From positions 1,041,001-1,105,000 of the forward strand of contig NZ_CP011039.1 of the NCBI RefSeq assembly GCF_000238255.3: a stretch of DNA of 64,000 nucleotides, given 5' to 3'. Made by a program: the position numbers and the translations under genes. The stretch comes from Pseudoalteromonas spongiae UST010723-006 (lineage in GTDB: Bacteria; Pseudomonadota; Gammaproteobacteria; Enterobacterales; Alteromonadaceae). Below, piece by piece: positions 39,972-59,709 of this stretch. The notes beneath the pieces are model-generated. The model searched no databases. It had not been told where the DNA came from and saw only the letters and a list, made by a program, of their open reading frames with translations. Position 1 is the stretch's first letter. Each line of letters opens with the position of its first letter.

Positions 39972-40781
39972 TTGAAGCATATAGTTTGCATAATTATATT
40001 GTTTTTTAGTTGGGGAAGTTGTGCTCAGCAAAGCGAAAATGCAATTGAGCTAAGTCAATTAAGACTTGGTGTAGCATTAGGTTTTGGCACAATTACAAAT
40101 CCACTCAATGATGGTGATAATTTACCGTTAATTGTGATCCCCGATATTGCATACTATGGTGAACGTGCTTACTTTGATAACGGTCAACTTGGTTTTACCT
40201 TATCTGAACATAACCGGCATGTATTTAATCTTATCTCCGAGTTCAATCCAGAAAATCGCTTTTTTGTGACATGGCACCCCGCCAATGTATTTATTGCTCG
40301 AAACGCATTCACGGAACCTGCAAATTCGGAACGGATCTCTATTTCAGAAATAAATAGCCCTAAGTGGGCATTAGATGGTGGTGTGAATTATCAGTATATT
40401 GCCGATACTTGGCGCTTTTCAGCCAGTGTATTGCACGATATTTCTAATGTACACAAAGGTCAGCGCGTTGCATTAAGCTTAAGTAAAGGCTGGCAAACAC
40501 AATCTGGATTATTGAGTGTGCGTTTGGGGCTTGATTATTTATCTCACAAACTCGCAGATTATTATTATGGTATTCAAGCCGACGATCAGGTTGGCATTAC
40601 GTTTCAGCAAAATGCTGCCTGGTTGCCTCACGTAGAACTAAGTTGGCATAGGCAAATTAATCAACATTTTGGTTTGTTAGCAAAAGTAAAATACCACTAT
40701 TATGGTTCGCTTAGTGATAGTCCTTTATTTTCGAGTAATCAAAGCGTGACAGTATTTACTGGGATGACCCATGTTTTTTAG
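39972..40781 (+). CDS. MipA/OmpV family outer-membrane protein (copy 1)
   Basis: 269 aa, apparently starting at TTG 39972 with GGAG 11 nt upstream; no ATG gives the signal peptide (KHIVCIIILFFSWGSCA). The mature protein is an antiparallel beta-barrel with alternating residues. Family-like strings include LHDISNVHKGQ, YYYGIQADD and a terminal aromatic HVF. MipA in E. coli scaffolds the MltA lytic transglycosylase; OmpV proteins are surface barrels of uncertain role. First gene of a four-gene set (barrel, DUF3019, response regulator, kinase), paralogous to the set at 56446-59709. Overlaps the next gene by 11 nt. Confidence 0.85.
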   Translation: MKHIVCIIILFFSWGSCAQQSENAIELSQLRLGVALGFGTITNPLNDGDNLPLIVIPDIAYYGERAYFDNGQLGFTLSEHNRHVFNLISEFNPENRFFVTWHPANVFIARNAFTEPANSERISISEINSPKWALDGGVNYQYIADTWRFSASVLHDISNVHKGQRVALSLSKGWQTQSGLLSVRLGLDYLSHKLADYYYGIQADDQVGITFQQNAAWLPHVELSWHRQINQHFGLLAKVKYHYYGSLSDSPLFSSNQSVTVFTGMTHVF

Positions 40782-41157
40782 ATGCTGTCTGTTTTTTATA
40801 TTGTGCGTATTTAACAGTGCGGGCGTTGCTGCAGAGCAAAAAGCGCATTTTCAGTTAGCTCCTGCGGTGTGCATGGTGCAAAACAGTGATGATGTGTGTC
40901 AGGTTGATGTTAACTTTGAATGGCAGATAAAAAAAGCAGAGGATGTTTGCATTTTACGCGATCAAACCCCTTTAAAATGTTGGCAAAATGCCACTGAAGG
41001 GCGTTTTAGTTATAAAGCTGACGTTCAGTTTGGCACTGTATACTCCTTGGTCAATCGGAAAACTGGCAAACAAATCGCCAGTGCGAAAATCAAAGTTCAA
41101 AGCAGCAATACCAAGTCGCAGCGTAGGCGATTACGCACCCCTTGGAGCTTTTTCTAG
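40771..41157 (+). CDS. DUF3019 secreted protein (copy 1)
   Basis: 128 aa; signal peptide (MFFRCCLFFILCVFNSAGVAA). The mature part (about 107 aa) has four cysteines in the pattern C-x8-C, C-x9-C (PAVCMV, DDVCQV, EDVCIL, PLKCWQ) that could form two disulfides, and a basic/aromatic C-terminus (QRRRLRTPWSFF). The family has no assigned function. Encoded between an outer-membrane barrel and a two-component system, it could be a periplasmic partner or signal input. Starts within the mipA-like gene. Confidence 0.8.
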   Translation: MFFRCCLFFILCVFNSAGVAAEQKAHFQLAPAVCMVQNSDDVCQVDVNFEWQIKKAEDVCILRDQTPLKCWQNATEGRFSYKADVQFGTVYSLVNRKTGKQIASAKIKVQSSNTKSQRRRLRTPWSFF

Positions 41158-41166
41158 GAGACAAAG

Positions 41167-41853
41167 ATGGCGCATATTTTATTAGTGGAAGACGATATTG
41201 CCTTACAACAACTGACCAAAGATTATTTAGAACACAACGGTATGACGGTTGATGTGTTAAGTGATGGTTCTGAAGTGATGGCGGCACTTGAAGCTAATAT
41301 GCCTGATTTAATGATTTTGGATGTCATGCTGCCAGGTAAAGACGGTTTTAGCGTGTGTCGTGAAGTACGCGATCGCTACCAGTTGCCCATTTTAATGTTG
41401 ACCGCAAAAGGCGAAGATTTTGATCAAGTGATTGGTCTTGAGCTGGGCGCCGACGACTATGTCATTAAACCAGCTGAACCAAGAGTTTTATTAGCACGTA
41501 TCTCTGCGCTACTGCGTCGTGGAGCAGTAGAAAAAAGTAGTGAAGAACTGCGTTTTGGTACGCTTACTATTGATAAAAACAGCCGTATTGTTAAGTTGCT
41601 TGGTGAAGAAGTGAGCTTAACCTCGCACGAATTTGAATTACTGTGGTTACTGTCAAACAGCGCAGGCGAAGTACTTAGCCGTGACTTTGTGCACGAGAAA
41701 ATGATTGGCCGTGAGTACGATGGCTTAGACAGAACCGTAGATGTACGTGTGTCTCGACTACGTAAAAAACTTGGCGATAATAGTGATAAACCCTATCGCA
41801 TTAAAACCGTATGGGGACAAGGCTACTTGTTCGTATCAGATGCTTGGGGATAA
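41167..41853 (+). CDS. OmpR/RstA-type response regulator (copy 1)
   Basis: 228 aa. Receiver domain with acidic pocket E8/D9, phospho-acceptor D52 (LDVMLPGKDG), T79 and K101, followed by a winged-helix trans_reg_C domain (REYDGLDRTVDVRVSRLRKKLGD...YRIKTVWGQGYLFV). AGGAGA precedes the ATG. Its kinase partner follows 22 nt later. It should bind tandem direct repeats; candidates lie upstream of this set. Closely resembles the regulator at 57760-58458. Confidence 0.94.
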   Translation: MAHILLVEDDIALQQLTKDYLEHNGMTVDVLSDGSEVMAALEANMPDLMILDVMLPGKDGFSVCREVRDRYQLPILMLTAKGEDFDQVIGLELGADDYVIKPAEPRVLLARISALLRRGAVEKSSEELRFGTLTIDKNSRIVKLLGEEVSLTSHEFELLWLLSNSAGEVLSRDFVHEKMIGREYDGLDRTVDVRVSRLRKKLGDNSDKPYRIKTVWGQGYLFVSDAWG

Positions 41854-41875
41854 TCACAAGCTGCAAGGAATTTAG

Positions 41876-43117
41876 ATGGGCAAGTTATTTGTTAGCTTAT
41901 ACGCCTATATTATCATCTCTATTTTTATTCTTAGCGGTGCGCTCGAGAAACTATGGCCTGAACCCAATGGCATAGATGCGCTACCGCTTGCGCCGCAAGT
42001 CACAGAATCTCTCTCCCAACTAGCAAAAACCGCTAATGGCATTACTAAACTCAAAGATATTTATCAAAACGAAGTGATTTCGTCTGATCTTGTTGCATTT
42101 TTGCCAGAACAAAGCGCCGATTTAAAGCAAGGGCTAGCAGTACCAGTATTTGACGGTCCGCAGCAAGTAATCTGGTATTTGCGGGTAAATGATAAAGAAT
42201 TACTGAAAATTGGTCCGTATCGTTTTGATGTTAATAGTTACGACTCGGTATGGCCATTTTTCATTATGTTGTTGGTTATTGGTTTACCCGTTGCGGCCTG
42301 GAGTTATTGGCTATGGCGTGATTTTAATCAGTTGGAAAAAGCATGTCACAATATAAGCGCGCCGGAAGATTTACAAATCAGCGGTGACGACAAATCTGCT
42401 TTATTGCCAATAAAACAAACATTAATGGCGATGAAAGCGCGTATAAAACACTTATTGGACAGTCAGCGCGAACTTACCTCGTCTGTATCTCACGAGTTTA
42501 GAACGCCATTAGCACGGCTTAAATTTGCGATTGCGATGCTGGAACAAACACAAGGCGATGATAAAAGTAAGCCGTACTTTGACGGTATGCAGTCCGACAT
42601 TCAAGAGCTAGAGTCGCTAGTGAGTGAAATGCTGGAGTTTGCAAAATTAGAACGAGAAAAACCGCAACTTAATATTGAGTTGTACGATGTAGTCGCGCAA
42701 ACACAACACTTTGTGCAAAAGCTTGGCTTTAACCACTCAACTGCTATCAAAATTGAAGCAAACACAGCCATTCAATTAAACGCCGACCCACACTTCATTG
42801 GCCGCGCAATTCAGAACTTTATTGGTAATGCGCTGAAATACGCAGAGCAGCAAGTAATCGTTACCTTGACGCAAACCTCAAATACTATTTTTATTAAAGT
42901 GGCTGATGATGGTCCTGGCATTGAACAATCCGAGTGGGAAAACGTATTTAAACCATTTACCCGTTTAGATAAAAGCCGCAATAAAAAAATCAAAGGATTT
43001 GGCTTAGGGTTAGCAATCGTGCAAAAAATCATAAACTGGCACGAAGGTGAATGCTATCTTGAAAGTGGCCCGTTAAAAGGCGCATGTTTTGTAATTGCGT
43101 TACCTAAAAAACCTTAA
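41876..43117 (+). CDS. sensor histidine kinase (copy 1)
   Basis: 413 aa. TM1 (about 5-22), a small periplasmic sensor region of about 100 aa, TM2 (about 123-145), a short HAMP-like linker, HisKA with H-box SVSHEFRTPLARLK, and HATPase_c with N (NFIGNALKYA), G1 (DDGPGI) and G2 (GFGLGLAIV) boxes. Pairs with the upstream response regulator. Architecture is RstB-like. The periplasmic domain is not recognisable and may read out the MipA/DUF3019 pair encoded in the same set. Confidence 0.92.
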   Translation: MGKLFVSLYAYIIISIFILSGALEKLWPEPNGIDALPLAPQVTESLSQLAKTANGITKLKDIYQNEVISSDLVAFLPEQSADLKQGLAVPVFDGPQQVIWYLRVNDKELLKIGPYRFDVNSYDSVWPFFIMLLVIGLPVAAWSYWLWRDFNQLEKACHNISAPEDLQISGDDKSALLPIKQTLMAMKARIKHLLDSQRELTSSVSHEFRTPLARLKFAIAMLEQTQGDDKSKPYFDGMQSDIQELESLVSEMLEFAKLEREKPQLNIELYDVVAQTQHFVQKLGFNHSTAIKIEANTAIQLNADPHFIGRAIQNFIGNALKYAEQQVIVTLTQTSNTIFIKVADDGPGIEQSEWENVFKPFTRLDKSRNKKIKGFGLGLAIVQKIINWHEGECYLESGPLKGACFVIALPKKP

Positions 43118-43192
43118 TTTGATCTCTGCTAAACTAATGCAGCATAAACCTGCTATGCTGAATTTTTGTAAACAAAACATTAAAATAAACTA

Positions 43193-43211
43193 AATGAGAT
43201 TGATTCTCATT
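43193..43211 (+). promoter_or_regulatory. Fur box
   Basis: AATGAGATTGATTCTCATT is a 19-bp near-perfect dyad matching the gammaproteobacterial Fur operator pattern. It lies 72 bp upstream of the DUF4856 gene and implies iron repression of the gene set 43283-48627 and perhaps 48680-49696. Confidence 0.75.
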
Positions 43212-43282
43212 GGTTTTGAAGTTTATAATAGCGTTAGTTTATAAATCTTCATTAATAAAAATTATACTTTATAGGTCACATA

Positions 43283-45061
43283 ATGATTAATTTTCGTAAA
43301 TCTGCGTTAGCATCAGCTGTGCTTGCTGTATCTCTTGGCTTAACTGGCTGTGGTGGTAGCGATAGCAAAAAAGATCCTGTAACTCCTGTAAACCAAGCTC
43401 CAACTGATATCCAAATCTCAGCATCTTCAATTGCTGAAGATACACTTGGCGCGGCTATTGGTGCACTAACTGCAACAGATGATGCAACATCAGGTCTAAC
43501 CTTCACTGTATCAGACGAACGTTTTGAAATTGTTGATGGCGAACTTAAAGTTAAAAATCATTTAGCGGTTAACTTTGAACAAGAAACAGAAATTACTGTA
43601 ACTGTAACTGTAACTGATGCAGGCGGTTTAACTTTTACAAAAGACTTAACGCTTAACGTAGCTGATGTTGATGCGGTCGCCGGCGTAAATACCTATGAAT
43701 TTAATTCAAAACTAGGTGAGGGTTCTTCAGTTTCTTACACAGGTCAAACTGCGCGTCATGCACTCTCGGCAGAAATTAAATATTACATGGGTTTAATGAC
43801 AGTTGAGTACATTGAGACTAATGGCATTATGGCTGCTGATGTAAGAGCTAAGTTAGATGCACTTTGGGGCGACTACGCGGCTGTTGCAGATTCTTCTATT
43901 TCTCACCTAGGCTCAGATTTATCAGCTTATAAGCAAAAGTCATTTGCTGAAATTTCAAGCTCAGGCAAAGAATTAAGTGGCAAAATTGCAGGTAATGATG
44001 CAAGCAAAATGTATCAGGATTGGTTAGTAGCTGGCACGTTTAAAGGCTGGAATGATTTTGGTACACGCGCAGCAACGCCTGAAGGTTTAGTTGAGCATTA
44101 CTTTGATTTATTCATTGCTCAAATTGAAAAAGTGAACGCGGGTGAAGCGCTAGTAGATGCAAATGGTGTTGCTATTTCAAAAGCATATATCACACCAGAA
44201 GGCTTGGATTTAGTTCAACTGGTTCAAAAGCATACCTTAGGTGCGCTAATGTTCTCACAAGGTGCTGATGACTACCTTGGTGAAGGTCTTGAGACAGACA
44301 ATAAAGTAGCGCAGAAAGAGTCAGCAAAATACACAGCTCTTGAGCACCAATTTGATGAAGGCTTTGGTTACTTCGGTGCGGCGCGTAACTATCTAGAATA
44401 CTCTGACAGCGAGATTGCTAAAAAAGGCGGTCGCGAAGACTTCCAAGGTAAAAATGATATTAATGGTGATGGTGTAATCGACCTAGCGTCAGAGTTTGTG
44501 TGGGGCAACTCTTCAAATGCAGCAAAACGTGACCTTGGCGCAACAGTTACAACTGACTTAACAACGCAGGCAATGCTTCACTTTATTGCTGGTCGTAAAA
44601 TGATTACCGATAACCATGGTTCGGACCTAAGTGAGTTCTCAGCTGACGATCAAGCAAAATTCCGCGAGCATGTTTTCCAAGCCGTAAATGCGTGGGAAAA
44701 AGCAATTGCTGCGACAGTTGTTCATTACATTAACGATGTAATTGCTGATATTGAAAACATTGAAGACGGCGAATACACATCAGCTGAATTTGCGGATTAC
44801 GCTAAGCATTGGGGTGAAATGAAAGGTTTCGCACTGAACTTCCAATTCAACCCATATTCACCGTTTGCAAATCATGAACTAAACCCGAAAAAAGATACGG
44901 TAGGCGAAGCAAAATTTGTGGAAATGCATGACTTATTCGGCGACATGCCAGTACTTGCTGATGCAGATGCATTTGCACAGTACAAAGCACAATTAATTGC
45001 AGCGCGCGATATTTTAGATGATGCGTTTGATTTTGAAGACGCGAACTCAGAAAACTGGTAA
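43283..45061 (+). CDS. DUF4856 lipoprotein with cadherin-like domain
   Basis: 592 aa. Lipobox LTGC (C23). Residues 35-125 form a cadherin-like Ig fold (NQAPTDIQISASSIAEDTLG). The rest matches DUF4856 (YEFNSKLGEGSSVSYTGQTARHALSAEIKYY), an all-helical family related to imelysins and found next to iron-uptake genes. AGGTCAC precedes the ATG. It sits behind a Fur box and before an imelysin-like lipoprotein and a TonB receptor, so an iron-handling role outside the cell or in the periplasm is likely. No enzymatic motif seen. Confidence 0.85.
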   Translation: MINFRKSALASAVLAVSLGLTGCGGSDSKKDPVTPVNQAPTDIQISASSIAEDTLGAAIGALTATDDATSGLTFTVSDERFEIVDGELKVKNHLAVNFEQETEITVTVTVTDAGGLTFTKDLTLNVADVDAVAGVNTYEFNSKLGEGSSVSYTGQTARHALSAEIKYYMGLMTVEYIETNGIMAADVRAKLDALWGDYAAVADSSISHLGSDLSAYKQKSFAEISSSGKELSGKIAGNDASKMYQDWLVAGTFKGWNDFGTRAATPEGLVEHYFDLFIAQIEKVNAGEALVDANGVAISKAYITPEGLDLVQLVQKHTLGALMFSQGADDYLGEGLETDNKVAQKESAKYTALEHQFDEGFGYFGAARNYLEYSDSEIAKKGGREDFQGKNDINGDGVIDLASEFVWGNSSNAAKRDLGATVTTDLTTQAMLHFIAGRKMITDNHGSDLSEFSADDQAKFREHVFQAVNAWEKAIAATVVHYINDVIADIENIEDGEYTSAEFADYAKHWGEMKGFALNFQFNPYSPFANHELNPKKDTVGEAKFVEMHDLFGDMPVLADADAFAQYKAQLIAARDILDDAFDFEDANSENW

Positions 45062-45086
45062 TTTAAAAAACGTTTTAAATTGATAT

Positions 45087-45118
45087 AAAAGGTTAGTAAT
45101 TTCGGTTACTAACCTTTT
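45087..45118 (+). terminator. hairpin between DUF4856 and imelysin genes
   Basis: 13-bp perfect stem AAAAGGTTAGTAA / TTACTAACCTTTT with a 6-nt loop but only four T after it. Probably a partial terminator lowering expression of the following genes, or a 3' stabiliser. Confidence 0.6.
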
Positions 45119-45153
45119 GCTGTATTTATAATTCGAGATTTTAGGATAATTTT

Positions 45154-46437
45154 ATGTTGATATCCGCAAAACTTAAACCGATAGCATTGGCAACATCATT
45201 AGTATTGACGTTGGCAGCGTGTTCGGAAGATACCTCAAGTACACAGGGACCAAATTTTGGTGGCGGTACAAGCGAGCCAGGGAATGGTGGCGGCACAACG
45301 TTTGATGAAAAAGCGTTAGTGGCAAACTTAGTCGATAATGTGATCACGCCAACATTTACCTCGTTTAATCAACAAGCGAATGCAAACAAACAAAACATTG
45401 AAAGCTATTGTGCAGTTGAAAAAGCAGCGATGGCAGGTGATGCAACTGAACAGCAACGTTTAGCTGCATTAGCATCGGCGCAAACTAGCTGGCGCGATAC
45501 AACGGCACTTTGGCAACATGCAGAGCTGATGCAAATGGGGCCGCTATTAGAAAATGAAGGCGAACTGCGCAATCTAATTTACTCTTGGCCTGCTAAAAGC
45601 TTATGTGGCGTAGATCAAGATACCGTGTATTTTGAAGACGGCGTGATTAATAAAAATGCATCGCGTCCTTACGATATTAAACAGCGTACCGCAACGCGTC
45701 GTGGTCTAGTAAGCCTTGAACATTTACTGTTCACCGAGCAACTAAATCACAGCTGTTCGATTGCGAATGATGCGCTTGCTGATTGGAATAACCGCAGTGA
45801 TAGCGAACGTCGTATCGCGCGCTGTGAGTTCGCTGTTGAAGTCGCCAGCGATTTAGTTGATAACAGCCAAGTGTTACTTGATAAATGGAATGGTGACAAT
45901 GGCTACGCAATGAAGTTAAAAAATGCCGGTGAAGTTGGCAGCAGTTTTGATAGCGTACATGCGGCGGTTAATGTAATTTCCGATGCACTTTTCTATCTTA
46001 CTGAAGAACTAAAAGATCAAAAATTAGCACTACCGCTGGGTTATGAAAGTAACTCGTGTGGTTTAGAAGCATGTCCTCAAGATGTTGAGTCACCGATAGC
46101 GGCGCAATCGCTTGCTAATATCAAAGCAAACCTTGCTGCGTTTGAAAAACTCTTTACTGGCAATGGTATAGTGCAAGATAACACCACTGGTTTTGATGAT
46201 TTTCTTGTAGAAGAAGAGGGCACTGACGTTAAAGACACAATGTTAACTGGCCTTGAGCAATCAAATGCCGCATTAGATGCGATTAATGGTTCGCTGCAAC
46301 AAGCACTGATTGATGAAAAAGACAAAGTAGAAACGTCTCACGCAAAAGTAAAAGATGTGACCGATCAGTTAAAACATGATTTTATTAACAAACTTGCGCT
46401 TGAATTACCTAAATCTTCAGCCGGCGATAATGATTAG
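45154..46437 (+). CDS. imelysin-like (peptidase M75 family) lipoprotein
   Basis: 427 aa. Lipobox LAAC (C23) and a Gly-rich linker, then the imelysin fold: two four-helix bundles with WRDTTALWQHAEL and the variant GxHxxE site as GLVSLEHLLF. Relatives such as IrpA and EfeO bind or shuttle iron at the cell surface or periplasm; true proteolysis is doubtful. AGGA precedes the ATG. Second gene of the Fur-box set, 9 nt before the TonB receptor. Confidence 0.88.
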   Translation: MLISAKLKPIALATSLVLTLAACSEDTSSTQGPNFGGGTSEPGNGGGTTFDEKALVANLVDNVITPTFTSFNQQANANKQNIESYCAVEKAAMAGDATEQQRLAALASAQTSWRDTTALWQHAELMQMGPLLENEGELRNLIYSWPAKSLCGVDQDTVYFEDGVINKNASRPYDIKQRTATRRGLVSLEHLLFTEQLNHSCSIANDALADWNNRSDSERRIARCEFAVEVASDLVDNSQVLLDKWNGDNGYAMKLKNAGEVGSSFDSVHAAVNVISDALFYLTEELKDQKLALPLGYESNSCGLEACPQDVESPIAAQSLANIKANLAAFEKLFTGNGIVQDNTTGFDDFLVEEEGTDVKDTMLTGLEQSNAALDAINGSLQQALIDEKDKVETSHAKVKDVTDQLKHDFINKLALELPKSSAGDND

Positions 46438-46446
46438 AGCTTTATT

Positions 46447-48627
46447 ATGAAAAAAACACTTTTAGCATTAGCAATTGCAAGCTGTGCAACGTCCGTTGTT
46501 GCAAAAGATAACAAAGCAAACGATATCGAGCACATCACCATTATTAGTCACGGTGACAAACTGCGTACAGAGTCTGGTTCAGCAACCCTTGTTTCAGAAG
46601 TAGAACTCGAAAAATATGAATACGATGATATTCACCGTATTTTAGCCAAAGTACCGGGCGTAAATATTCGTGAAGAAGACGGTTATGGCCTGCGTCCAAA
46701 TATTGGCTTTCGTGGTGTTACACCTGAGCGTAGTAAAAAAGTAACTATTTTAGAAGACGGTGTCTTAATTGGCCCGGCGCCATACTCAGCGCCGGCGGCA
46801 TACTATTTTCCAGTCACTACGCGAATGACCGCAGTAGAAGTGTTTAAAGGCCCTGCGGCAATTAAGCACGGCCCGCAAACGGTTGCAGGTACGCTTAATA
46901 TGGTTACGCGCCAAGTACCATTTGAAATGACCGGTGGTTTGGATCTAGCAACGGGCACCGATGGCTATCAAAAAGCGCACGGATATTTTGGTACTGAAGT
47001 AGCCAAAAATTTGGGTGTACTAGTTGAAGGTGTTCGTTTACAAGCGGATGGTTTTAAGGAAATCGATAACGGTGGTGATTCAGGCTTTAAAAAGAATGAT
47101 TTACTCGTTAAAACTAAATATTTGTTAGACGGACAAGCGTTCGACCAAAGTTTTGAACTTAAGCTTTCTTACGCAGATGAAAACTCAGATGAAACTTACC
47201 TAGGGTTAACGGATGCGGACTTTAATGCAAATCCGTATCGTCGCTACGCGGCTTCTCAACCTGCGAATATGGACACTGAGCATACGCAAATTATGTTTAC
47301 CCATAATCTCTCAAACGATGTTTTCTCTGCAACAACGCGTGTTTATCGCAACGACTACGAGCGTGCTTGGCGAAAATTAGGTAGCTTAACAAGTTCAAGT
47401 GCAAGTTTGTCGGCAATTATGACAAACCCAGAATTACATGAACGAGAATATGCTGTTATAACTGGTGAGCAAAACTCAGTGCTAGATGGTGAAACATCAA
47501 TGTTCTTAGTTATGGGTACCAATGACCGCGAATACTATTCACAGGGTATTCAAATTGATGCCGACTACGAATTTTCACTTGGTGGTTTAGATCATAAGTT
47601 AGCATTCGGCGTGCGTTATCATGAAGATGAAATTGAGCGTAAACACTTTAGTGAAAACTATCAGATGCTTGATGGTTACGCTGAAAAAACAGCTGGTGAT
47701 AAAGTATTTACTACAACCAATATCGAAAATACTGAGGCGCTTTCAGTTTATATTGAAGACACGGTAAAACTTGGCAACTTAACGGTGTCTGCGGGTGTTC
47801 GTGGCGAAGATATGGATATGTACTACACCGACCTTGTGGACAAAGACGATTGGCAACGTAAATCAACTCAAATTTGGCTACCTGGCGTGAGCGGTTTTTA
47901 TCAAGTGACAGAAAACGCAGGCGTGTTATTTGGTGTGCATCAAGGTTTTGTGCCAAGCAGTCCGCAACAGGCATCTGATGTTAAAGTTGAGAAAAGCATT
48001 AACTATGAGTTTGGTGGTCGTTTTAACGACGGCGCAACTAACATCGAACTAGTTAGCTTTTTTAATGACTACAGCAACTTAAAAGAAAGCTGCTCACAGT
48101 CAAGTTGTGGTACACAAGGCGACCTTGACCGCGAGTTTAACGGTGGCGAAGTGAATGTGTATGGCTTGGAAGCACAGTTACGTCAAAGCTATCCAATTAG
48201 TACACAATTTGATATGCCATATAGCTTCACTTATACCTATACCAAATCTGAGTTTTTAGAAAGCTTTGAATCAGATTTTGAACAGTGGGGGGATATTTCG
48301 GATGGCGACTCAGTACAGTATTTACCTGAACATCAATTGAACTTTGAAATCGGTTTAGCGGCGAATAATTGGGAAACCAATTTAATCGTTAAATACGTAA
48401 GCGAAATGGATGAAGCCGCAGGTGATAATGTTACGTTATCGGGCTTTAAAACCGAGTCGAGCGTTATTGTAGATGTATCCGCATCGTATGATCTTGGTCA
48501 ATATGGCCGCATTTACGGCAAGGTTGATAACCTAACTGATGAAGCGTACATTATTAGTCGCCGCCCGTATGGCGCAAGACCAAATAAGCCAAGACAGTTT
48601 GTAATTGGTTACAAATACCAGTTTTAA
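46447..48627 (+). CDS. TonB-dependent receptor, FecA-like
   Basis: 726 aa. Signal peptide (MKKTLLALAIASCATSVVA), TonB box region (DIEHITIISHGDKLR), plug (about 40-160, with RPNIGFRGVTPERSKKVTILEDG and GPAAIKHGPQTVAGTLNMVTR) and a barrel ending GYKYQF. The plug is closest to the ferric dicitrate receptor FecA group, but there is no N-terminal signalling extension. Being behind a Fur box with DUF4856 and imelysin partners, it probably imports an iron complex; citrate is only a guess. Confidence 0.92.
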   Translation: MKKTLLALAIASCATSVVAKDNKANDIEHITIISHGDKLRTESGSATLVSEVELEKYEYDDIHRILAKVPGVNIREEDGYGLRPNIGFRGVTPERSKKVTILEDGVLIGPAPYSAPAAYYFPVTTRMTAVEVFKGPAAIKHGPQTVAGTLNMVTRQVPFEMTGGLDLATGTDGYQKAHGYFGTEVAKNLGVLVEGVRLQADGFKEIDNGGDSGFKKNDLLVKTKYLLDGQAFDQSFELKLSYADENSDETYLGLTDADFNANPYRRYAASQPANMDTEHTQIMFTHNLSNDVFSATTRVYRNDYERAWRKLGSLTSSSASLSAIMTNPELHEREYAVITGEQNSVLDGETSMFLVMGTNDREYYSQGIQIDADYEFSLGGLDHKLAFGVRYHEDEIERKHFSENYQMLDGYAEKTAGDKVFTTTNIENTEALSVYIEDTVKLGNLTVSAGVRGEDMDMYYTDLVDKDDWQRKSTQIWLPGVSGFYQVTENAGVLFGVHQGFVPSSPQQASDVKVEKSINYEFGGRFNDGATNIELVSFFNDYSNLKESCSQSSCGTQGDLDREFNGGEVNVYGLEAQLRQSYPISTQFDMPYSFTYTYTKSEFLESFESDFEQWGDISDGDSVQYLPEHQLNFEIGLAANNWETNLIVKYVSEMDEAAGDNVTLSGFKTESSVIVDVSASYDLGQYGRIYGKVDNLTDEAYIISRRPYGARPNKPRQFVIGYKYQF

Positions 48628-48644
48628 GCTTTGGCATTGCGAAT

Positions 48645-48667
48645 AAGGGGCTATCGGCCCCTTTTTT
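48645..48667 (+). terminator. terminator after the TonB receptor gene
   Basis: AAGGGGC / GCCCCTT stem with TATCG loop and six T; the next gene starts only 13 nt further, so it may be read through or have its own promoter upstream. Confidence 0.8.
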
Positions 48668-48679
48668 GTAGGAACTGCT

Positions 48680-49696
48680 GTGTTAGAGATATTTTCAACA
48701 AGTTTAAGCGAACTACCGCGTTATTTTAGCGATGCGAATAAACGTATTTTTTACCTTTATTTGTTAAGTGCGGTGGCGTTAGCGCTGCCGGTGTATTTTG
48801 CTGCAACAAAACAGCGTACAACGTTAGGCTTTTTTAAATTCTTATTCCCAAAATCAGTTTGGTTAGCAAAAAGTGCCAAGCAAGATTATGCTTTGTGGGT
48901 AGTTAATAAACTGATCAAAGCCTTAATGTTCGGCCCTATTGTATTAACAATGGCACCGATAGCAATTGCGCTAAGTGACGCTTTAGAATGGCTGTTCGGT
49001 CGCACAGAGCCGTTGGCATTGGCCAAGTGGCAAGTAATCACTATTTTCACTTTTCTACTTTTTATTATTGATGACTTAACGCGTTTTTTACTGCACTACG
49101 CTCTGCATAAAATACCGTTTTTATGGGAATTTCATAAAGTACATCACAGCGCAAAAGTACTTACGCCATTTACCATTTACCGTTCTCACCCTGTGGAGAG
49201 TTATTTATACGCGTGCCGTATGGCAATCGTACAAGGAACCGCAGTGGGTATAGGCTACTATTTATTTGCCGATGCAATTAGTATGTTTGATGTGTTAGGT
49301 GCCAATGTGTTTGTGTTTTTGTTTAATGTTTTTGGCGCAAATTTACGCCACTCACATATTTGGTTGTCGTGGGGCGATAAGTTGGAAGGCGTTTTTATTA
49401 GCCCTGCACAACATCAAATCCATCACAGTGATAACCCCAAACACTTTGATACGAACTTGGGTTCCGCACTGGCTATTTGGGACCGTATGACAGGTACCCT
49501 CATTAAAGCATCAGAAGTTGGCAAGATTTCCATTGGTGTAGGGCAGTATGATTGCGGCCATGATTCGTTATTTGCGATTTATAGTAAACCGTTTTTAGAG
49601 TCTGCAAAATCATTAAAGCTAAGTGCTAAAAAAGGCATAAATAAAATAGTGCCGAATAAAGACAAGGTCACCAATGACAAAAAACCGAGCATCTAA
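48680..49696 (+). CDS. sterol desaturase / fatty acid hydroxylase family membrane protein
   Basis: 338 aa, GTG start at 48680 with AGGA 7 nt before. Four or so membrane helices and the eight-histidine di-iron pattern of the superfamily: HYALH, HKVHHS, and QHQIHHSDN. These enzymes hydroxylate or desaturate lipids; the bacterial substrate is usually unknown. It follows the iron-regulated set across a terminator. A di-iron enzyme beside iron uptake genes is suggestive but not proof of co-regulation. The terminator stem overlaps its stop codon. Confidence 0.87.
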   Translation: MLEIFSTSLSELPRYFSDANKRIFYLYLLSAVALALPVYFAATKQRTTLGFFKFLFPKSVWLAKSAKQDYALWVVNKLIKALMFGPIVLTMAPIAIALSDALEWLFGRTEPLALAKWQVITIFTFLLFIIDDLTRFLLHYALHKIPFLWEFHKVHHSAKVLTPFTIYRSHPVESYLYACRMAIVQGTAVGIGYYLFADAISMFDVLGANVFVFLFNVFGANLRHSHIWLSWGDKLEGVFISPAQHQIHHSDNPKHFDTNLGSALAIWDRMTGTLIKASEVGKISIGVGQYDCGHDSLFAIYSKPFLESAKSLKLSAKKGINKIVPNKDKVTNDKKPSI

Positions 49697-51415: not shown

Positions 51416-51453
51416 AAATAAAGTGAGATTGTGAAAGTCTCAGCTAGTATACC

Positions 51454-51705: not shown

Positions 51706-51806
51706 AGTCACGTCATTCAGAGTAATGGATAGGTAAATATTACTCTGAATAACGTCAAAAGTGTTACAAAAATGTAAATGAACGTAATCGTGCTAAGTGG
51801 TTTATG

Positions 51807-53387: not shown

Positions 53388-53600
53388 AGAGTATTTTATA
53401 ATTATCAGTTAAATAGTAAGGCTTTTCTTAGTCTATCTAAAAACACCCTGCTGTGCTACGAAATACGCTCAGCGCAAGCCAATCAAAGATGCAATCTAAA
53501 CTAAAATGTAATCAACTTTTAACAAGTATAACTTTTAACTGACAAATTAATATTTTTATGGTTAATATGCAGTATAAGTATAAAGAACAAGGTGAGTTAT

Positions 53601-54344: not shown

Positions 54345-54360
54345 GCGAAGATAATTATCT

Positions 54361-54382
54361 AAGGGGCTTAGGCCCCTTTTTT
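54361..54382 (+). terminator. terminator of the Spo0M gene
   Basis: AAGGGGC / GCCCCTT stem with TTAG loop and six T, 16 nt past the stop; the elaA-like ATG follows 12 nt later. Confidence 0.85.
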
Positions 54383-54394
54383 ATTGGGTGCATA

Positions 54395-54850: not shown

Positions 54851-54874
54851 AAAAATTGCTAAGAGCCTAAAACT

Positions 54875-54904
54875 AAAAAGCCGATGAATACACATCGGCT
54901 TTTT
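54875..54904. terminator. shared terminator (GNAT / NSS transporter)
   Basis: AAAAAGCCGATG / CATCGGCTTTT stem with AATACA loop between converging genes. Confidence 0.9.
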
Positions 54905-54930
54905 GTTTATCTGTTTAAGTCTTCAGCTGG

Positions 54931-56280
54931 TTAGGTAAATGAATGAATAAATACCGCCGCAATAGCGAGCGGACACACAAATTTTGTGTACCATGGCCAG
55001 ATTTTCCAGAACACGCCTGATTCAACGTCTTCATTACCTTGTTTAATTTCTTCAACAAGTGAATTTCGTTGCCAAATCCATCCTGCGAAAATACAGCAGA
55101 ACATTGCGATAATTGGTTGACCATATTCTGTCGCCAATGTTGCCACAAAGTCGAGCATCGTACCGATGTTAAAAATAATCACAAAGCTGATTGCTAAAAT
55201 ACCAATACCAGTCCATGTAGTCGCAGTTTTACGCTCAATATTATGGCGCTCAACAAGATAAGATACAGGGCCTTCTAACATTGATATTGACGACGTAAGT
55301 GCGGCAATCGACATCAGGATAAAGAATGCCAAGCCAACAAACACACCCAGTTGGCCCATAGAATCAAATAAACTTGGTAAGACTTGGAATACAAGGGTTG
55401 GGCCTGCGAGCAGTGAGCCATCCTCAGCAAAAATTTGCACGCCTTGTTCCAACGCGACGTACATTGCTGGAATGACTAAAAGGCCTGCTAAAAACGCAAT
55501 CGATACGTCAATAAATGTTACTTGAGCGCCGATGGTAACCATATTTTCTTTTTTCGAAATATATGAACCATAGATCACCATTACACTAGTACCCAATGAT
55601 AGTGAAAAGAAAGCTTGGCCAAGTGCGCTAATTAGTAAGTCAGGATCAAGTACTCTTGAAATATCCGGGTTAAGGTAAGCTTCTAATCCTTTGTCTGCTC
55701 CATCTAAGGTTAATACATAGATGATCAGTAAGATAAGCAGAGCAATCATTGCAGGCATCAAACGCTTAGACCATTTCTCTATGCCATCTTCTACACCATT
55801 ACGAATAATAATCACGGTTAAAAACATAAAAATTGCACAGAAGAAAATATTGCGTGCCACGCTGTCGCTAACGGCCCACTCTGCAACGCTGGTGGCACCG
55901 ACGATGGTTGCACCTGCCTCTATGGCGTAAGATGTCATCCAACCGGCTAAAATACCGTAAAAGCTTAAAATAAGCGCTGCACAGACAATGCCGCCAAAGC
56001 CGACAATAAATGCGAAGCGTTTTTGTGTTTGCGTACGAGAAAGTTTTTCAAGAGAGGTTACGGCATTCGCTTGGCCGTATCGCCCAATTAGAATTTCAGC
56101 CATAAATGCAGGGTATGCTAGGCAAAACGCTAAAATTAAATACATTAATACAAACGCTGCACCACCATTAGTTGCCGTTTGTGTTGGGAAGCCCCAAATA
56201 TTGCCAAGACCAACAGCACTACCTGCTGCTGCCATGATAAATCCTAGTCGAGAGGAAAACTCTCCACGTGAAGCACTCAT
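54931..56280 (-). CDS. neurotransmitter:sodium symporter (NSS/SNF) family transporter
   Basis: 449 aa, 11-12 helices. Signature of the family at TM1: GFIMAAAGSAVGLGNIWGFPTQTATNGG (16-43), including the unwound substrate/Na+ site, and TM6 FFSLSLGTSVMVIYGSY. Imports amino acids with sodium, as in MhsT/LeuT relatives. 11-TM length typical of bacterial members. Substrate undetermined. Confidence 0.93.
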   Translation of the reverse strand: MSASRGEFSSRLGFIMAAAGSAVGLGNIWGFPTQTATNGGAAFVLMYLILAFCLAYPAFMAEILIGRYGQANAVTSLEKLSRTQTQKRFAFIVGFGGIVCAALILSFYGILAGWMTSYAIEAGATIVGATSVAEWAVSDSVARNIFFCAIFMFLTVIIIRNGVEDGIEKWSKRLMPAMIALLILLIIYVLTLDGADKGLEAYLNPDISRVLDPDLLISALGQAFFSLSLGTSVMVIYGSYISKKENMVTIGAQVTFIDVSIAFLAGLLVIPAMYVALEQGVQIFAEDGSLLAGPTLVFQVLPSLFDSMGQLGVFVGLAFFILMSIAALTSSISMLEGPVSYLVERHNIERKTATTWTGIGILAISFVIIFNIGTMLDFVATLATEYGQPIIAMFCCIFAGWIWQRNSLVEEIKQGNEDVESGVFWKIWPWYTKFVCPLAIAAVFIHSFT

Positions 56281-56445
56281 ATATTTTTCTCGTTATTAGT
56301 TTGCCGCCCAATCTACTGTAAATTGAAATAAATTAATAGAGTGAGTTCGCTTGATTTAGATCAATAAGATTAAAAAAATGTAAACAATCAAATTCGCTAA
56401 ATTGTTAAATGTAATAGTTGCGTAATTTGTTAAAGGGCGAGCGGG

Positions 56446-57756
56446 CTACCATGAACTGGTCTTGTTCTTTAAATGGCAGCGATGTGGCAAGCGTAAAGTA
56501 AATTTTGCACCGCCGAGTTCTTTGGAGCGAGATACTTTAATATCGCCGAAATGCCAAGCGATGACTTTTGCGACGATAGCAAGCCCAAGGCCATAGTTTT
56601 TGGCCGCGCGGTTGCGGTGATTTTCTTGCTGGAAGAATGGCTTTAACACGTTATCTAGGTTTGCTTCATCAATGCCCGGGCCATCGTCTTCAATTTCAAT
56701 AAACGTGTCAGCGTGGGTTTGCGTGGTGCTAATCGTAATGGTGGTTTTTGCAAAGTCAGCGGCGTTACTTAGTAAATTAACAATGGCGCGGGCTAACCAG
56801 TGCGGATCCACATAAAGCTGCTGGGTGTCTGATTTTATTTCAAGTTTGATAGATTGCGCGTTGAGTTTAGGTTCAACTTGATAAAAACAGTTATCAAATA
56901 GCTCAGTGCTGGTGATGGCAGTAGGCGATATTTGATACGATTTTTGCTCAAGGGTCGCGTACTCTAAATAGCTATTGAGCATGGATTCCATTTGATCTAA
57001 GTCGTTTTCCATGCGTTCAAGGTAATGCTGAATTTTAGTTGGATCTTTGGTATCTATCGCGGCATCTAAGCCAAACCGTAAACACGCAAGGGGAGTGCGG
57101 ATATCATGCGACATACTGGATGCGAGTAATTGGTTTTCTTCAATCAGCTGCTGAATTTGGTCGGCCATGCGATTGTAACTGGTTTCTAGCTCGCGAATAT
57201 AGCTTAGCCCGGTTAAGTTGATACGCGCATCGAGGTTGCCATTGGCAAATTGTGCGGTGGCCTTATTTAGCAAACTTAATCGTTTGGTAAGCGGCGCGAG
57301 CCACCACCACATAAAAATGCAAATGCCCAGATAAAAACCAACGGTTAAAAAGAGATCGGTACGATTAGTTGGCATTGGCGGCTTTTCAACACGCAACTGA
57401 ATATGGCTATCGGCTAATGCTGCACTTGTTTGAATCAAGTAAAAGCCTAATTCGTCTTCTAGGGTAATACCGCCGGGTACCAGTAATTCTCCGTGCAGTT
57501 CGCGGGGCAATGCAAGCTCGCTATTGCTGTGGTAACTCAAGCTAAATTGACTCGCTTGGGTGAAGCGTTTTAAAAAGGCTTCATGTCCGCTTTTAGGGTG
57601 ATGGCTTATTTCAGCAACCACGCCTGCAAGTATTTGCTTTTCAACTTTAAAATTATCGTGATTACTCGGAGGCGCACTTAATGAATCAATCAACCAACCA
57701 AGAATAAATGATGAAATCAGTGCGCCGGTGATCAGGCTAATATAAAGCTTTTTCAT
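56446..57756 (-). CDS. sensor histidine kinase (copy 2)
   Basis: 436 aa. TM1 (about 8-27), periplasmic sensor (about 28-132, rich in His), TM2 (about 134-154), a clear HAMP domain (LTKRLSLLNKATAQFANGNLDARI), HisKA with SMSHDIRTPLACLR, and HATPase_c with NLLSNAADFA, DDGPGI and YGLGLAIV. RstB-like. Starts 3 nt after its response regulator gene. Last gene of the second MipA/DUF3019 set. The H-box uses DIR rather than EFR, and the sensor region is not similar by eye to copy 1. Confidence 0.92.
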   Translation of the reverse strand: MKKLYISLITGALISSFILGWLIDSLSAPPSNHDNFKVEKQILAGVVAEISHHPKSGHEAFLKRFTQASQFSLSYHSNSELALPRELHGELLVPGGITLEDELGFYLIQTSAALADSHIQLRVEKPPMPTNRTDLFLTVGFYLGICIFMWWWLAPLTKRLSLLNKATAQFANGNLDARINLTGLSYIRELETSYNRMADQIQQLIEENQLLASSMSHDIRTPLACLRFGLDAAIDTKDPTKIQHYLERMENDLDQMESMLNSYLEYATLEQKSYQISPTAITSTELFDNCFYQVEPKLNAQSIKLEIKSDTQQLYVDPHWLARAIVNLLSNAADFAKTTITISTTQTHADTFIEIEDDGPGIDEANLDNVLKPFFQQENHRNRAAKNYGLGLAIVAKVIAWHFGDIKVSRSKELGGAKFTLRLPHRCHLKNKTSSW

Positions 57757-57759
57757 TAA

Positions 57760-58458
57760 CTACCAAGCTTGGCTTACAAACAAATAACCTTTACCCCAAA
57801 TGGTTTTTATTTTATTTGGGCTTTGTGGGTCGTCGCCAATTTTCTTACGAAGTGCAGAAATAAGCACATCAACGCTGCGATCTAAACCGTCGTATTCTCT
57901 GCCTTTGGTCGCTAAAAACACGCTATCGCGGTCGAGAATTTGATCCGCATTTGATGCCAAGTAAAATAATAAGGAATATTCGGCATTTGAAAGGGCGAGT
58001 TTAGTACCATCTAAAAATACGTCGCGTGACAAAGTGTCGATTTGTAAACTGCCAATGCTGATCTCATCAGAATTGGTATCCGAGCTCCCTTGTTTTTCAC
58101 GCATTACTGCATTGATACGCGCAAGCAATACACGTGGACGCACAGGTTTTATGACATAATCACTTGCGCCAACTTCCAAGCCAAGTACTTCATCAATTTC
58201 ATCACCTTTAGCGGTCATCATAATAATTGGTTGATGATAGAAAATACGTAAATCGCGACATACACTCATGCCATCTTTACCTGGCAGCATTAAATCAAGT
58301 AATACTAAATCGGGGTTATGTTTTTTTACTGCCTGCACAGCTTCGTCACCACGATGACACAAAACAACGTCAAAACCTTGCTCAATTAAGTACTCACTTA
58401 CCCATTGTGCAAGAGATGTGTCATCTTCAACTAATAGTATTTTTTTTGCTATATCCAT
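57760..58458 (-). CDS. OmpR/RstA-type response regulator (copy 2)
   Basis: 232 aa from ATG 58456-58458 (MDIAKKILLVEDD), with GGAG 9 nt upstream; the ATG overlaps the DUF3019 stop by one base. A GTG five codons earlier is possible. Phospho-acceptor D55 (LDLMLPGKDG). The winged helix shares long strings with copy 1: GREYDGLDR[ST]VDV and the terminal GYLFVSxAW. Similar DNA-binding helices suggest overlapping target sites. Confidence 0.93.
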   Translation of the reverse strand: MDIAKKILLVEDDTSLAQWVSEYLIEQGFDVVLCHRGDEAVQAVKKHNPDLVLLDLMLPGKDGMSVCRDLRIFYHQPIIMMTAKGDEIDEVLGLEVGASDYVIKPVRPRVLLARINAVMREKQGSSDTNSDEISIGSLQIDTLSRDVFLDGTKLALSNAEYSLLFYLASNADQILDRDSVFLATKGREYDGLDRSVDVLISALRKKIGDDPQSPNKIKTIWGKGYLFVSQAW

Positions 58459-58883
58459 TAAAACAGTCTCCACCGACGTTTCTTTCGCTTATTGGTATAT
58501 ACCCAATTTACTTTCATTTCTACGGGCTCGCTTATTTGCCCTGAGCTAATTTCAACTAATTCGTATTGCATAGCTTCTGGCGAGTTAAACTCACTGTCTA
58601 ATTCACCAAAGGTACTGCTATACCAGCAGCGAATCAGTTTTTTATCACTTACTGTGCGAATACAGTAATCACCTCTGACCGGCGCATGCCACTGGAACTT
58701 TAATTTGGTGTAACAGTGTTTTCCTTGACGCAATGCCACACATTTTTCAGGGAAAATGGCCAGTTCAGGGTGCGATAGTGGCAAATTGACGTTCTTTTCG
58801 GCATTGGCAAAAGACATGCTTGCGAACAAAAATAACGCAATAAGCTTGAGCTTAATAAGGACAAATTTAAGGTTAAAATACAT
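58458..58883 (-). CDS. DUF3019 secreted protein (copy 2)
   Basis: 141 aa from ATG 58881-58883 (MYFNLKFVLIKLKLIALFLFASMSFANA, signal peptide); the longer alternative uses a TTG. This start gives exactly the same 11-nt overlap with the mipA-like gene as in copy 1. Four cysteines correspond to copy 1 (PEKCVA, KHCYTK, GDYCIR, IRCWYS), and the C-terminus is again basic/aromatic (NKRKKRRWRLF). Function unknown. Confidence 0.8.
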   Translation of the reverse strand: MYFNLKFVLIKLKLIALFLFASMSFANAEKNVNLPLSHPELAIFPEKCVALRQGKHCYTKLKFQWHAPVRGDYCIRTVSDKKLIRCWYSSTFGELDSEFNSPEAMQYELVEISSGQISEPVEMKVNWVYTNKRKKRRWRLF

Positions 58884-59709
58884 AGCGTATACCAACCTTA
58901 GCTTTGTGTCGTAAGCTGTTAGAGATTAATGGACTGTTGCTAATTTCCTTTGAATACCAAGAGGATAACCAGCCACCAAGAAACACCCAATCTTCGTTAA
59001 TTGGGTATTCGGCGTGAATTTCAAAGGTCAGGCTGTACGCGGCACTTGGGTTGTACTGTGGTCTAAATCCCGCGATTGCTTCGTTGGCATCTACGCCAAA
59101 ATAATAACCAGTGAAATCCGATGAATAAATATTTAGGCCTGAGCCAACACGAAATTCCCAATTGCGATAATCTTGAATCGTACTAATAAAACCACTTGCC
59201 CAAAGACTTTTATGTGCACCTGAGATGTCGTGGAGAATTTCTAACGATAACTGGTGAGTTTTTTCTTTACGGGTAAGGCGAAGGCCCGCATTAAAATCAT
59301 CTTCGCGTTCTTTCACGCCGCGAAGTTGAGATACTAAATCGTCGTCGTAAAAAGTGCCAGTTTCATCAAAACCTTCATGGGCGTTAATCGCGAATAAATC
59401 GAGACTCCAGTCATACTTATCAACGAGGTTATAACCAATCGTCAAGCCACCTGTAAGCTGCGAGTTATCCACATCAAAATAAAATTTGTCGTAGTTGATG
59501 GCAACATTGATGTTTAATTCAAAACCATCTTGATAGTCCACACCTTGTAAATAGTGTTTATCGACATAGTAGCCAGCACCAAAACTCCAATCCCACGTGA
59601 ATCCATCACTTGCCTCGAGTGTGTTGTCTGCATAAAGCCTATTACTAGCAAGGCAGGGCGTCGCAAGCAAGGTGCTCAAAATAAGAAGTGAAATTGTAAT
59701 TTTGTTCAT
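58873..59709 (-). CDS. MipA/OmpV family outer-membrane protein (copy 2)
   Basis: 278 aa. Signal peptide (MNKITISLLILSTLLATPCLA). Beta-barrel with family strings FTWDWSFGAGYYV, LEILHDISGAHKSL, YYFGVDANEA and terminal IRYVF. Paralogue of the barrel at 39972 (LHDIS-x2-HK and YY[YF]G match). First gene of its four-gene set, preceded by a TATAAT box and TGTA repeats. Likely regulated by the downstream two-component system. Confidence 0.87.
   Translation of the reverse strand: MNKITISLLILSTLLATPCLASNRLYADNTLEASDGFTWDWSFGAGYYVDKHYLQGVDYQDGFELNINVAINYDKFYFDVDNSQLTGGLTIGYNLVDKYDWSLDLFAINAHEGFDETGTFYDDDLVSQLRGVKEREDDFNAGLRLTRKEKTHQLSLEILHDISGAHKSLWASGFISTIQDYRNWEFRVGSGLNIYSSDFTGYYFGVDANEAIAGFRPQYNPSAAYSLTFEIHAEYPINEDWVFLGGWLSSWYSKEISNSPLISNSLRHKAKVGIRYVF

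Follow-up and report, generated by a model that had tools for sequence, protein, structure and literature searches.

The closest described systems link a MipA-family outer-membrane protein to a two-component system (TCS). In Pseudomonas aeruginosa, MipA binds polymyxins, and deletion of mipBA impairs the output of the ParRS TCS (PMC10936184, in excerpt). In Vibrio cholerae, OmpV, a member of the MipA family, lies in an operon with CarRS, an RstAB-like TCS responsive to antimicrobial peptides (excerpts of PMC13413815 and PMC9178039), and the first of these sources concludes that in V. mimicus OmpV works independently of CarRS. For RstA of enterobacteria, the published box is given in the excerpted source as TACATNTNGTTACA (PMC4117788). 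Here we compare these systems with two gene sets, A and B, in a 64,000-nucleotide window of Pseudoalteromonas spongiae UST010723-006 (NZ_CP011039.1, positions 1,041,001 to 1,105,000). We read each set as an autoregulated envelope-sensing operon with a local regulon, in which MipA and the uncharacterised protein DUF3019 would act as co-sensor (probability roughly 0.6).

All eight open reading frames are present, set A at 39972-43117 (+) and set B at 56446-59709 (-), with 13.3 kb between them (Table 1). Both run in the order MipA, DUF3019, response regulator (RR), histidine kinase (HK). The original prediction of the same four families in the same order, 13 kb apart and inverted, thus agrees with the reading frames and with the Pfam matches, the two MipA and two DUF3019 proteins all exceeding their gathering cut-offs (24.2 bits for PF06629, 25 bits for PF11456). 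The mipA and DUF3019 genes of set A overlap by 11 nt. Set B MipA is predicted to form a 12-stranded barrel, as expected for the MipA/OmpV family. Both regulators carry Response_reg and Trans_reg_C and both kinases HisKA and HATPase_c, all over the Pfam cut-offs, and HAMP exceeded its cut-off in the set B kinase only. From hydrophobicity, the periplasmic part of the kinase spans ~104 residues in set A and ~112 in set B. The 4.75-Mb genome contains no further DUF3019 match.

Table 1. Features of the two gene sets and their promoters, in window coordinates.
Feature	Position	Strand	Basis
RstA-box-like direct repeat TGTA-N6-TGTA before mipA, set A	39894..39907	+	pattern match, putative site
MipA/OmpV outer-membrane barrel, set A	39972..40781	+	PF06629 107.7 bits
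DUF3019 secreted protein, set A	40771..41157	+	PF11456 88.5 bits; predicted fold
12-residue basic tail of DUF3019 A, QRRRLRTPWSFF, net +4	41119..41154	+	codons
OmpR/RstA-type response regulator, set A	41167..41853	+	profile matches
RstB-like sensor histidine kinase, set A	41876..43117	+	profile matches
RstB-like sensor histidine kinase with HAMP, set B	56446..57756	-	profile matches
OmpR/RstA-type response regulator, set B	57760..58473	-	profile matches
DUF3019 secreted protein, set B	58458..58895	-	PF11456 74.8 bits
12-residue basic tail of DUF3019 B, TNKRKKRRWRLF, net +7	58461..58496	-	codons
MipA/OmpV barrel, set B	58873..59709	-	PF06629 118.2 bits
RstA-box-like repeat 1, shared mipA-B / serine hydrolase promoter region	59771..59784	.	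pattern match
RstA-box-like repeat 2, same promoter region	59792..59805	.	pattern match
Secreted serine hydrolase, Beta-lactamase family	59875..61059	+	PF00144 206.6 bits

The same arrangement recurs widely. The order MipA-DUF3019-RR-HK was intact at 128 of the 141 DUF3019 places parsed in a draw of 394 genomes, so the arrangement in the window is more than chance, and both DUF3019 loci found outside the taxonomic order (2/2) also have it. The gap between mipA and the DUF3019 gene was 30 nt or less in 119 of the 128 ordered modules. DUF3019 and the regulator occurred without an adjacent MipA at six of the 141 places, in about four lineages whose genomes encode MipA at other locations, and two MipA-DUF3019 pairs lacked an adjacent TCS. 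The proposed linkage of barrel, DUF3019 and TCS is therefore borne out, and the neighbourhoods gave no sign of DUF3019 genes standing apart from MipA and TCS genes as a rule.

The two sets are only distantly alike. Between the regulators, 226 residues align at 53% identity, and, as had been noted, their DNA-binding domains have identical strings in common (for example REYDGLDR). The kinase sensor regions differ, also as noted: the A/B alignment starts only at about residue 128/136 (33%) and leaves the sensor half unaligned. The DUF3019 proteins are ~27% identical in a two-row alignment, and the MipA proteins match only weakly at the C-terminus (28% over 128 residues). It is plausible that sets A and B are tuned to two different signals. 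Trees of RR+HK and of MipA+DUF3019, built from a hand-picked subset of 49 of 124 modules, gave identical clades of 17 and 15 rows, in which sets A and B each group with members of other taxonomic families. On these trees the four genes of the module have one common history, not the unrelated ones that would have undone the original prediction, and sets A and B belong to two paralogous lineages of old standing, one with sampled members from two families and the other from five. The copies lie 13 kb apart and inverted, as a recent local duplication of a single module would leave them, but constraining A+B as a clade was rejected (delta lnL 186, p-AU 1.2e-64). We give such an event next to no credence; the description of the module as duplicated here, if meant locally, was wrong.

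Repeats resembling the RstA box stand before both mipA genes. TGTA-N6-TGTA occurs three times in the whole window, always within the two mipA promoters, and the two set B repeats are 21 bp apart; three sites is a chance-level number, and it is their placement alone that exceeds chance. A TGTA/TACA-N6 repeat was found in 48 of 135 regions upstream of mipA, compared to 25 of 356 control promoters, and repeats with other spacings in 0-7 of 135. With the modules of the window excluded, the N6 repeat was present in 46 of 133, and TGTA ranked first of 256 words. No box was found, with one mismatch allowed, in 37 of the 135 upstream regions, and in the P. spongiae genome itself box patterns were not commoner than reversed controls (10 vs 15; 13 vs 19). 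Across 12 genomes the exact S8-class box gave 22 sites against 1 for the reversed control, of which 17 are the promoters that supplied the pattern, hence not independent, and 2 precede unlinked subtilases. The module repeats agree with the published TACATNTNGTTACA and, as expected for an RstA-type regulator, form a predicted TACA-N6-TACA-like box upstream of the operon it would control (PMC4117788, in excerpt). We consider it very probable, from these patterns, that the RstA-like regulator acts at TGTA-N6-TGTA boxes.

Boxes before mipA predict joint induction of all four genes, in support of the earlier suggestion that barrel and DUF3019 are regulated outputs. They could be outputs only, with the kinase sensing directly and both proteins protecting the envelope under stress, and the modules without adjacent MipA, the pairs without adjacent TCS and the V. 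mimicus report (PMC13413815, in excerpt) are consistent with this. Such a reading is rather unlikely, however, given that these specific MipA, DUF3019, RR and HK genes are almost always inherited together and that MipA-MipB is published as a co-sensor (PMC10936184, in excerpt). We lean towards MipA and DUF3019 as upstream co-sensors, more than mere outputs. The basis for this is the analogy to the published MipA-MipB/ParRS system and a modest co-variation of tail and MipA, described below.

The promoter region of set B, with its two repeats, is shared with a divergent gene for a 394-residue serine hydrolase, a probable output of set B as judged from this position. It retains SxxK, YxN and HxG motifs (read from the translation). 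In relatives, boxes also lie upstream of genes that recur as partners and encode exported proteins (subtilase, beta-propeller, TonB receptor, serine hydrolase), an S9 peptidase is another partner gene, and one relative (L083) has a PF00144 gene within the operon. A box in a shared promoter together with a lineage-specific partner makes outputs predictable from sequence for part of the modules. These partners would also suit a nutrient- or peptide-scavenging switch that detects peptides or some other polymer and induces exported hydrolases and a TonB receptor, with no stress sensing. We regard this as improbable: the published MipA/OmpV-linked systems considered respond to antimicrobial peptides, as far as the excerpted sources describe them, and among the 45 largest neighbour clusters listed, other transport or catabolic families were mostly restricted to one taxonomic family.

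DUF3019, on which full-text searches of one open-access library found no paper, in line with the earlier statement that no characterised function was known, is predicted to have an Ig-like fold. It has four invariant cysteines and, judged by eye, does not resemble a lipoprotein. In the set A protein, the hairpin register of the predicted fold suggests C34-C43 and C60-C70 as tentative disulfide pairs. Its C-terminus is a basic tail ending in Trp/Phe, predicted to be flexible, that resembles an antimicrobial peptide. A tail of net charge at least +3 with a W..[FLYI] end was present in 106 of 124 DUF3019 proteins, compared to 0 of 788 other flanking ORFs. Tails were weaker in the six modules without adjacent MipA, for which relaxed selection is also a possible cause, and fully retained in the two MipA-DUF3019 pairs without adjacent TCS. 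Tree-corrected, the charges of tail and MipA correlate modestly (r -0.21, p 0.02; -0.32, p 0.0003); sign tests did not reach 0.05 (p 0.11, 0.06), and the regulator, intended as a control, gave a weaker trend in the same direction (-0.14, p 0.12; -0.19, p 0.03). We suggest tentatively, at less than an even chance, that the tail contacts acidic MipA. Its position at the very C-terminus, the final Phe in 107 of 141 rows and the predicted flexibility would also fit a role that has nothing to do with MipA, as a degradation or sorting signal (a ligand of the PDZ-protease or Bam type). The basic run, the weaker tails where MipA is not adjacent, the full tails where the TCS is missing, and the modest charge relation make that unlikely.

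The sequences show the linkage, a shared descent of the four genes, where the boxes lie, the partner genes and a conserved tail; DNA binding, sensing, a ligand, a tail-MipA contact and a direction of signalling are what we infer. The outer-membrane barrel MipA and periplasmic Ig-like DUF3019, whose tail would most likely touch acidic MipA, would report an envelope insult to the RstB-like kinase. The insult would most likely be cationic peptides or the harm that they do to the outer membrane; a cationic peptide as the ligand itself falls just short of even odds. The RstA-like regulator would then bind the TGTA-N6-TGTA repeats and switch on mipA-DUF3019-RR-HK, together with a small dedicated exported set: the divergent serine hydrolase for set B, and a subtilase, beta-propeller, TonB receptor or S9 peptidase in relatives. 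A bolder version, which we think unlikely, is a displacement sensor with a local regulon dedicated to it. At rest, the basic Trp/Phe tail would lodge in the acidic MipA barrel as a mimic of a cationic peptide; real cationic peptides would displace it by competition, and DUF3019, once released, would switch the kinase, whose periplasmic part is acidic (median net -7). The induced exported enzymes, some of them peptidases, would destroy the peptide, and the sensor would have split into several paralogous lineages, of which several are paired with an exported partner of their own.

Taken as a whole, the original prediction is strongly supported for linkage, is supported by the predicted boxes for regulated outputs, and fails for local duplication. 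The DUF3019 tail, the regulator boxes and the serine hydrolase at the set B promoter are additional to it. DUF3019, an uncharacterised domain family, is placed in a defined context with a role that can be tested. Lineage-specific pairing of sensor and partner, with outputs predictable in part of the modules, makes signalling from the outer membrane to an inner-membrane kinase directly testable in harmless marine laboratory strains.

How does the module compare with known systems? Both regulators and both kinases have RstA/RstB as their best family match, with its TACA-N6-TACA box (PMC4117788, in excerpt), but missed the equivalog cut-offs (RstA NF007977, 242.2 and 253.8 vs 330 bits; RstB NF007898, 214.2 and 206.3 vs 478 bits). 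Unlike RstA/RstB, the pairs here are linked to MipA and DUF3019, and the exact box in the relatives searched lies mostly at modules and subtilase genes. CarRS-OmpV-VirK has a different gene order and includes VirK, and DUF3019 is not named in the excerpted sources; the MipA proteins missed the Vibrio OmpV equivalog cut-off (NF045789, 26 and 51.9 bits vs 400). The likeness to NlpE-OmpA-CpxA surface sensing, an outer-membrane protein and a periplasm-facing partner signalling to a kinase (PMC10936184, in excerpt), is one of concept; by eye, DUF3019 is not lipoprotein-like. In ParRS-MipB-MipA, as excerpted, MipA adjoins the TCS, as in both sets here, the regulator activates the mip genes, as the boxes predict here, and both systems have an accessory envelope protein. 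There the partner has a beta-lactamase fold, and here too a partner of this fold, the serine hydrolase, recurs (set B and some relatives). MipB is described as a large lipoprotein with a catalytically dead beta-lactamase fold and two C-terminal domains. No counterpart of it emerged among the eight module proteins, none of which matched PF00144 in the Pfam search; the accessory protein here is the small Ig-like DUF3019 with its basic tail. The serine hydrolase also departs from that description, with 394 residues, SxxK retained and a position divergent from mipA-B. The output of ParRS-MipBA is the MexXY pump, while the predicted outputs here are local exported proteins. Our best reading, by analogy, is that the module is a further variant of the ParRS-MipAB/CarRS-OmpV type, which would widen the idea of MipA/OmpV barrels as outer-membrane co-sensors of TCSs from Pseudomonas and Vibrio to many other Gammaproteobacteria, marine ones included.

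The four-gene arrangement expected from the original prediction, a MipA barrel, a DUF3019 protein, a response regulator and a histidine kinase, occurred twice in the window as set A and set B, with every family above its own Pfam cut-off (see table). The regulators and kinases of both sets had RstA and RstB as their best NCBIfam matches, with scores under the equivalog cut-offs. The genome contains two DUF3019 matches, both inside the window. By eye, two imelysin-like lipoproteins, a TonB-dependent receptor and a fatty-acid-hydroxylase-like membrane protein lie directly 3′ of set A, all in one direction (43283-49696), and look like an iron-uptake cluster. On its 5′ side (36314-38784 and 38912-39802) are a Dyp-type-peroxidase-like gene, a ketol-acid reductoisomerase gene and a LysR regulator gene, the latter two probably ilvC/ilvY, also by eye.

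Genes of the two modules and box sites in the mipA promoters
Feature	Position	Strand	Basis
Set A MipA	39972-40781	+	Pfam
Set A DUF3019	40771-41157	+	Pfam
Set A regulator	41167-41853	+	Pfam; NCBIfam best match RstA
Set A kinase	41876-43117	+	Pfam; NCBIfam best match RstB
Set B MipA	58873-59709	-	Pfam
Set B DUF3019	58458-58895	-	Pfam
Set B regulator	57760-58473	-	Pfam; NCBIfam best match RstA
Set B kinase	56446-57756	-	Pfam; NCBIfam best match RstB
Box, set A mipA promoter	39894-39907		pattern match
Box, set B mipA promoter	59771-59784		pattern match
Box, set B mipA promoter	59792-59805		pattern match

Of the 394 genomes of the order covered by a family search, 87 had DUF3019, at 143 places counting the window's two, and 268 had MipA. 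Flanks of up to 5 kb per side were taken for all 141 non-window places (140 stretches), and 141 of the 143 places were parsed. One omitted locus, L161, has a partial DUF3019 match close to a contig end. The other, L052, was left out as DUF3019 and the regulator share a single open frame of 426 residues (L052:4761-6041), which may reflect a natural fusion, loss of a stop codon or an error in sequencing; it would be unusual for a secreted domain to be joined to a regulator of the cytoplasm.

Linkage of MipA and DUF3019 to a two-component system across the order was borne out, with all four genes in the same order and on the same strand, with gaps <1 kb, at 128 of the 141 parsed places. Most gaps were a few nucleotides, with an extra gene between DUF3019 and the regulator in at least one case (L140). 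Among the 13 deviating places, three had one gene inserted at this position (a serine hydrolase in L083, a gene with weak barrel matches under the cut-off in L145 and a TonB receptor in L154), and one lacked a regulator (MipA-DUF3019-HK, L139:4107-6597). Another was the first copy of a tandem MipA-DUF3019-MipA-DUF3019-RR-HK (L142:2831-7944), which has two sensor pairs, one kinase and a divergent subtilase. Six had no adjacent MipA, one of which (L073) also lacked a same-strand kinase, and two had no adjacent two-component system. L100 and L102, from the window's genus, are MipA-DUF3019 pairs of this latter kind with full basic tails. As loci were selected for the presence of DUF3019, these counts are silent on MipA or kinases elsewhere. 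In a phylum-wide draw, 18 of 398 genomes had DUF3019; two of these lie outside the order, each with this four-gene set and a DUF3019 tail, and one of the two had the box described below.

The four genes also share a history, as the original prediction required. Over 124 complete modules, patristic distances for the four families were correlated with one another (Pearson 0.53 to 0.80). For trees, 49 of these were picked by hand to span the classes. The regulator-kinase tree placed set A within a 17-row set (95, starred; two families) and set B within a 15-row clade (100, starred; five families). The MipA-DUF3019 tree, built from separate columns, recovered the identical two sets (97, starred, and 92, unstarred), which argues that modules were passed on as units. 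Forcing A and B together in this second tree was 186 log-likelihood units worse (p-AU 1.2e-64). Given their separate clades and this cost, set A and set B are, on these sequence trees, old paralogous modules, each inherited as a unit and now 13 kb apart.

The 141 aligned DUF3019 proteins share one invariant Pro and four invariant Cys, and their C-terminus is a basic run with Trp after it (133/141) and a last residue that is mostly Phe (107/141), otherwise Leu or Tyr. Mean net charge was +4.5 for the tail and -0.7 for the core. A net charge of at least +3 in the last 12 residues plus a W..[FLYI] end was found in 106 of 124 DUF3019 proteins and in none of 788 other flanking ORFs. In the model of set A DUF3019, with a mean pLDDT of 75.9, the beta-sandwich core is predicted with confidence and the tail with low confidence; structural matches are generic Ig-like domains.

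What does the tail contact? Set B MipA is predicted to be a 12-stranded barrel, and 119 of 124 modules encode a mature MipA of net acidic charge. Tails were weaker in the six modules without adjacent MipA (mean +2.5 vs +4.3, n = 133; Mann-Whitney p 0.0004, which ignores kinship, the six being about four lineages), and two of the six had lost the aromatic end. A mipA remnant persists upstream in one (L051), and the genomes concerned have MipA genes at other places. The two pairs without an adjacent two-component system had tails of +6 and +7. Tail charge correlated negatively with MipA net charge (rho -0.38), also after tree correction (r -0.21, p 0.02, and -0.32, p 0.0003); when the contrasts were put to sign tests, p was 0.11 and 0.06, above 0.05, and the control, tail against regulator charge, gave -0.14 (p 0.12) and -0.19 (p 0.03). 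Since tails weaken without MipA, persist without the two-component system and covary in charge with MipA, the data suggest, with modest strength, that the tail's partner is MipA and not the kinase.

When word pairs separated by a gap were counted upstream of mipA in 135 regions, the direct repeat TGTA-N6-TGTA ranked first (35 regions vs 1.2 in first-order Markov shuffles), and agrees with the RstA box reported in PMC4117788. Spacing 6 occurred, in either orientation, in 48 of 135 regions, and each of the remaining spacings between 2 and 21 in 0-7; 37 regions had no box even with one mismatch allowed. With the window excluded, 46 of 133 regions had a spacing-6 site and TGTA was first of 256 words. 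Of 356 control promoters taken from these loci, 25 had the pair at spacing 6 and 1-9 at other spacings; seven of the 25 precede genes of the four partner families below, and one an S9 peptidase. The window's three sites are a chance-level number (2.3 expected), and all lie within the two mipA promoters. The narrower pattern TACANNTTNNTACA showed no excess in the window's genome (10 sites, reversed control 15); just two of these sites fall outside mechanical ORFs, both of them set B's. The exact subtilase-class box TACAAAATGMTACA had 22 sites in 12 whole genomes vs 1 for the reversed pattern, 17 of the 22 being the module or adjacent subtilase promoters that yielded it. Two more (L216, L217) lie 115-118 nt 5′ of a second, unlinked subtilase, and three (L198, L201, L202), which have no clear partner and are not close to a module or a peptidase gene, are possible further targets. 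The box TACAAACTGATACA had five sites in seven genomes, all at mipA (L222 assigned by coordinates).

Exported proteins recur beside the modules, in clusters derived from BLAST with one to four members each verified with Pfam: subtilases (PF00082, 22 loci), Beta_propel proteins (PF09826, 19), TonB-dependent receptors (13) and Beta-lactamase-family serine hydrolases (PF00144, nine genes at eight loci). At least one lay within the fetched flanks at 62 of 142 loci, and the gene immediately 5′ of mipA was a partner in 48 of 134 (another gene or a contig end in the remaining 86). All 19 beta-propeller and 20 of 22 subtilase genes were divergent from mipA. A perfect box lay within 250 nt of the start of 16/22 subtilases, 7/19 beta-propellers, 3/13 TonB receptors and 5/8 testable serine hydrolases, one site often being counted for both genes of a divergent pair. 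L096, one of the modules lacking an adjacent MipA, is followed by an S9 peptidase gene with a box of its own. The set B partner is a serine hydrolase (59875-61059) divergent from mipA, with both boxes in between. Set A has no evident partner; a family search found no Beta_propel match in its genome, where weak box sites 5′ of a subtilase and a trypsin-like gene are only suggestive as targets.

Two-component sensing linked to MipA is already known. A full-text search of mainly open-access papers found none naming DUF3019 or PF11456, and no report of the module was among the matches listed in topic searches of titles and abstract beginnings. Within this coverage, no account was found of the DUF3019 component, its tail, the modules' shared ancestry or the exported partners that carry the module's box; prior work may exist. 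In P. aeruginosa, MipA binds polymyxins and co-purifies with MipB, loss of mipBA impairs ParRS-dependent induction, and the authors propose MipA and MipB as co-sensors; a two-component system adjoins mipA in most mipA loci they screened (PMC10936184). In V. cholerae, a human defensin elicits a CarRS response, and ChIP shows enrichment of CarR at the ompV promoter (PMC9178039); for V. mimicus, OmpV is argued to act separately from CarRS (PMC13413815). The polymyxin-responsive BesRS of B. thailandensis has a MipA/OmpV gene in its regulon (PMC9426598), and another V. cholerae system, VC1638-39, responds to polymyxin with a periplasmic protein (PMC5636140). By analogy, the most likely role of the window's modules is as envelope or cationic-peptide sensors feeding a dedicated local regulon, with sensing, ligand and protein contacts all inferred. 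The ParRS-MipBA system of Pseudomonas has MipB in the slot that DUF3019 is proposed to take here.
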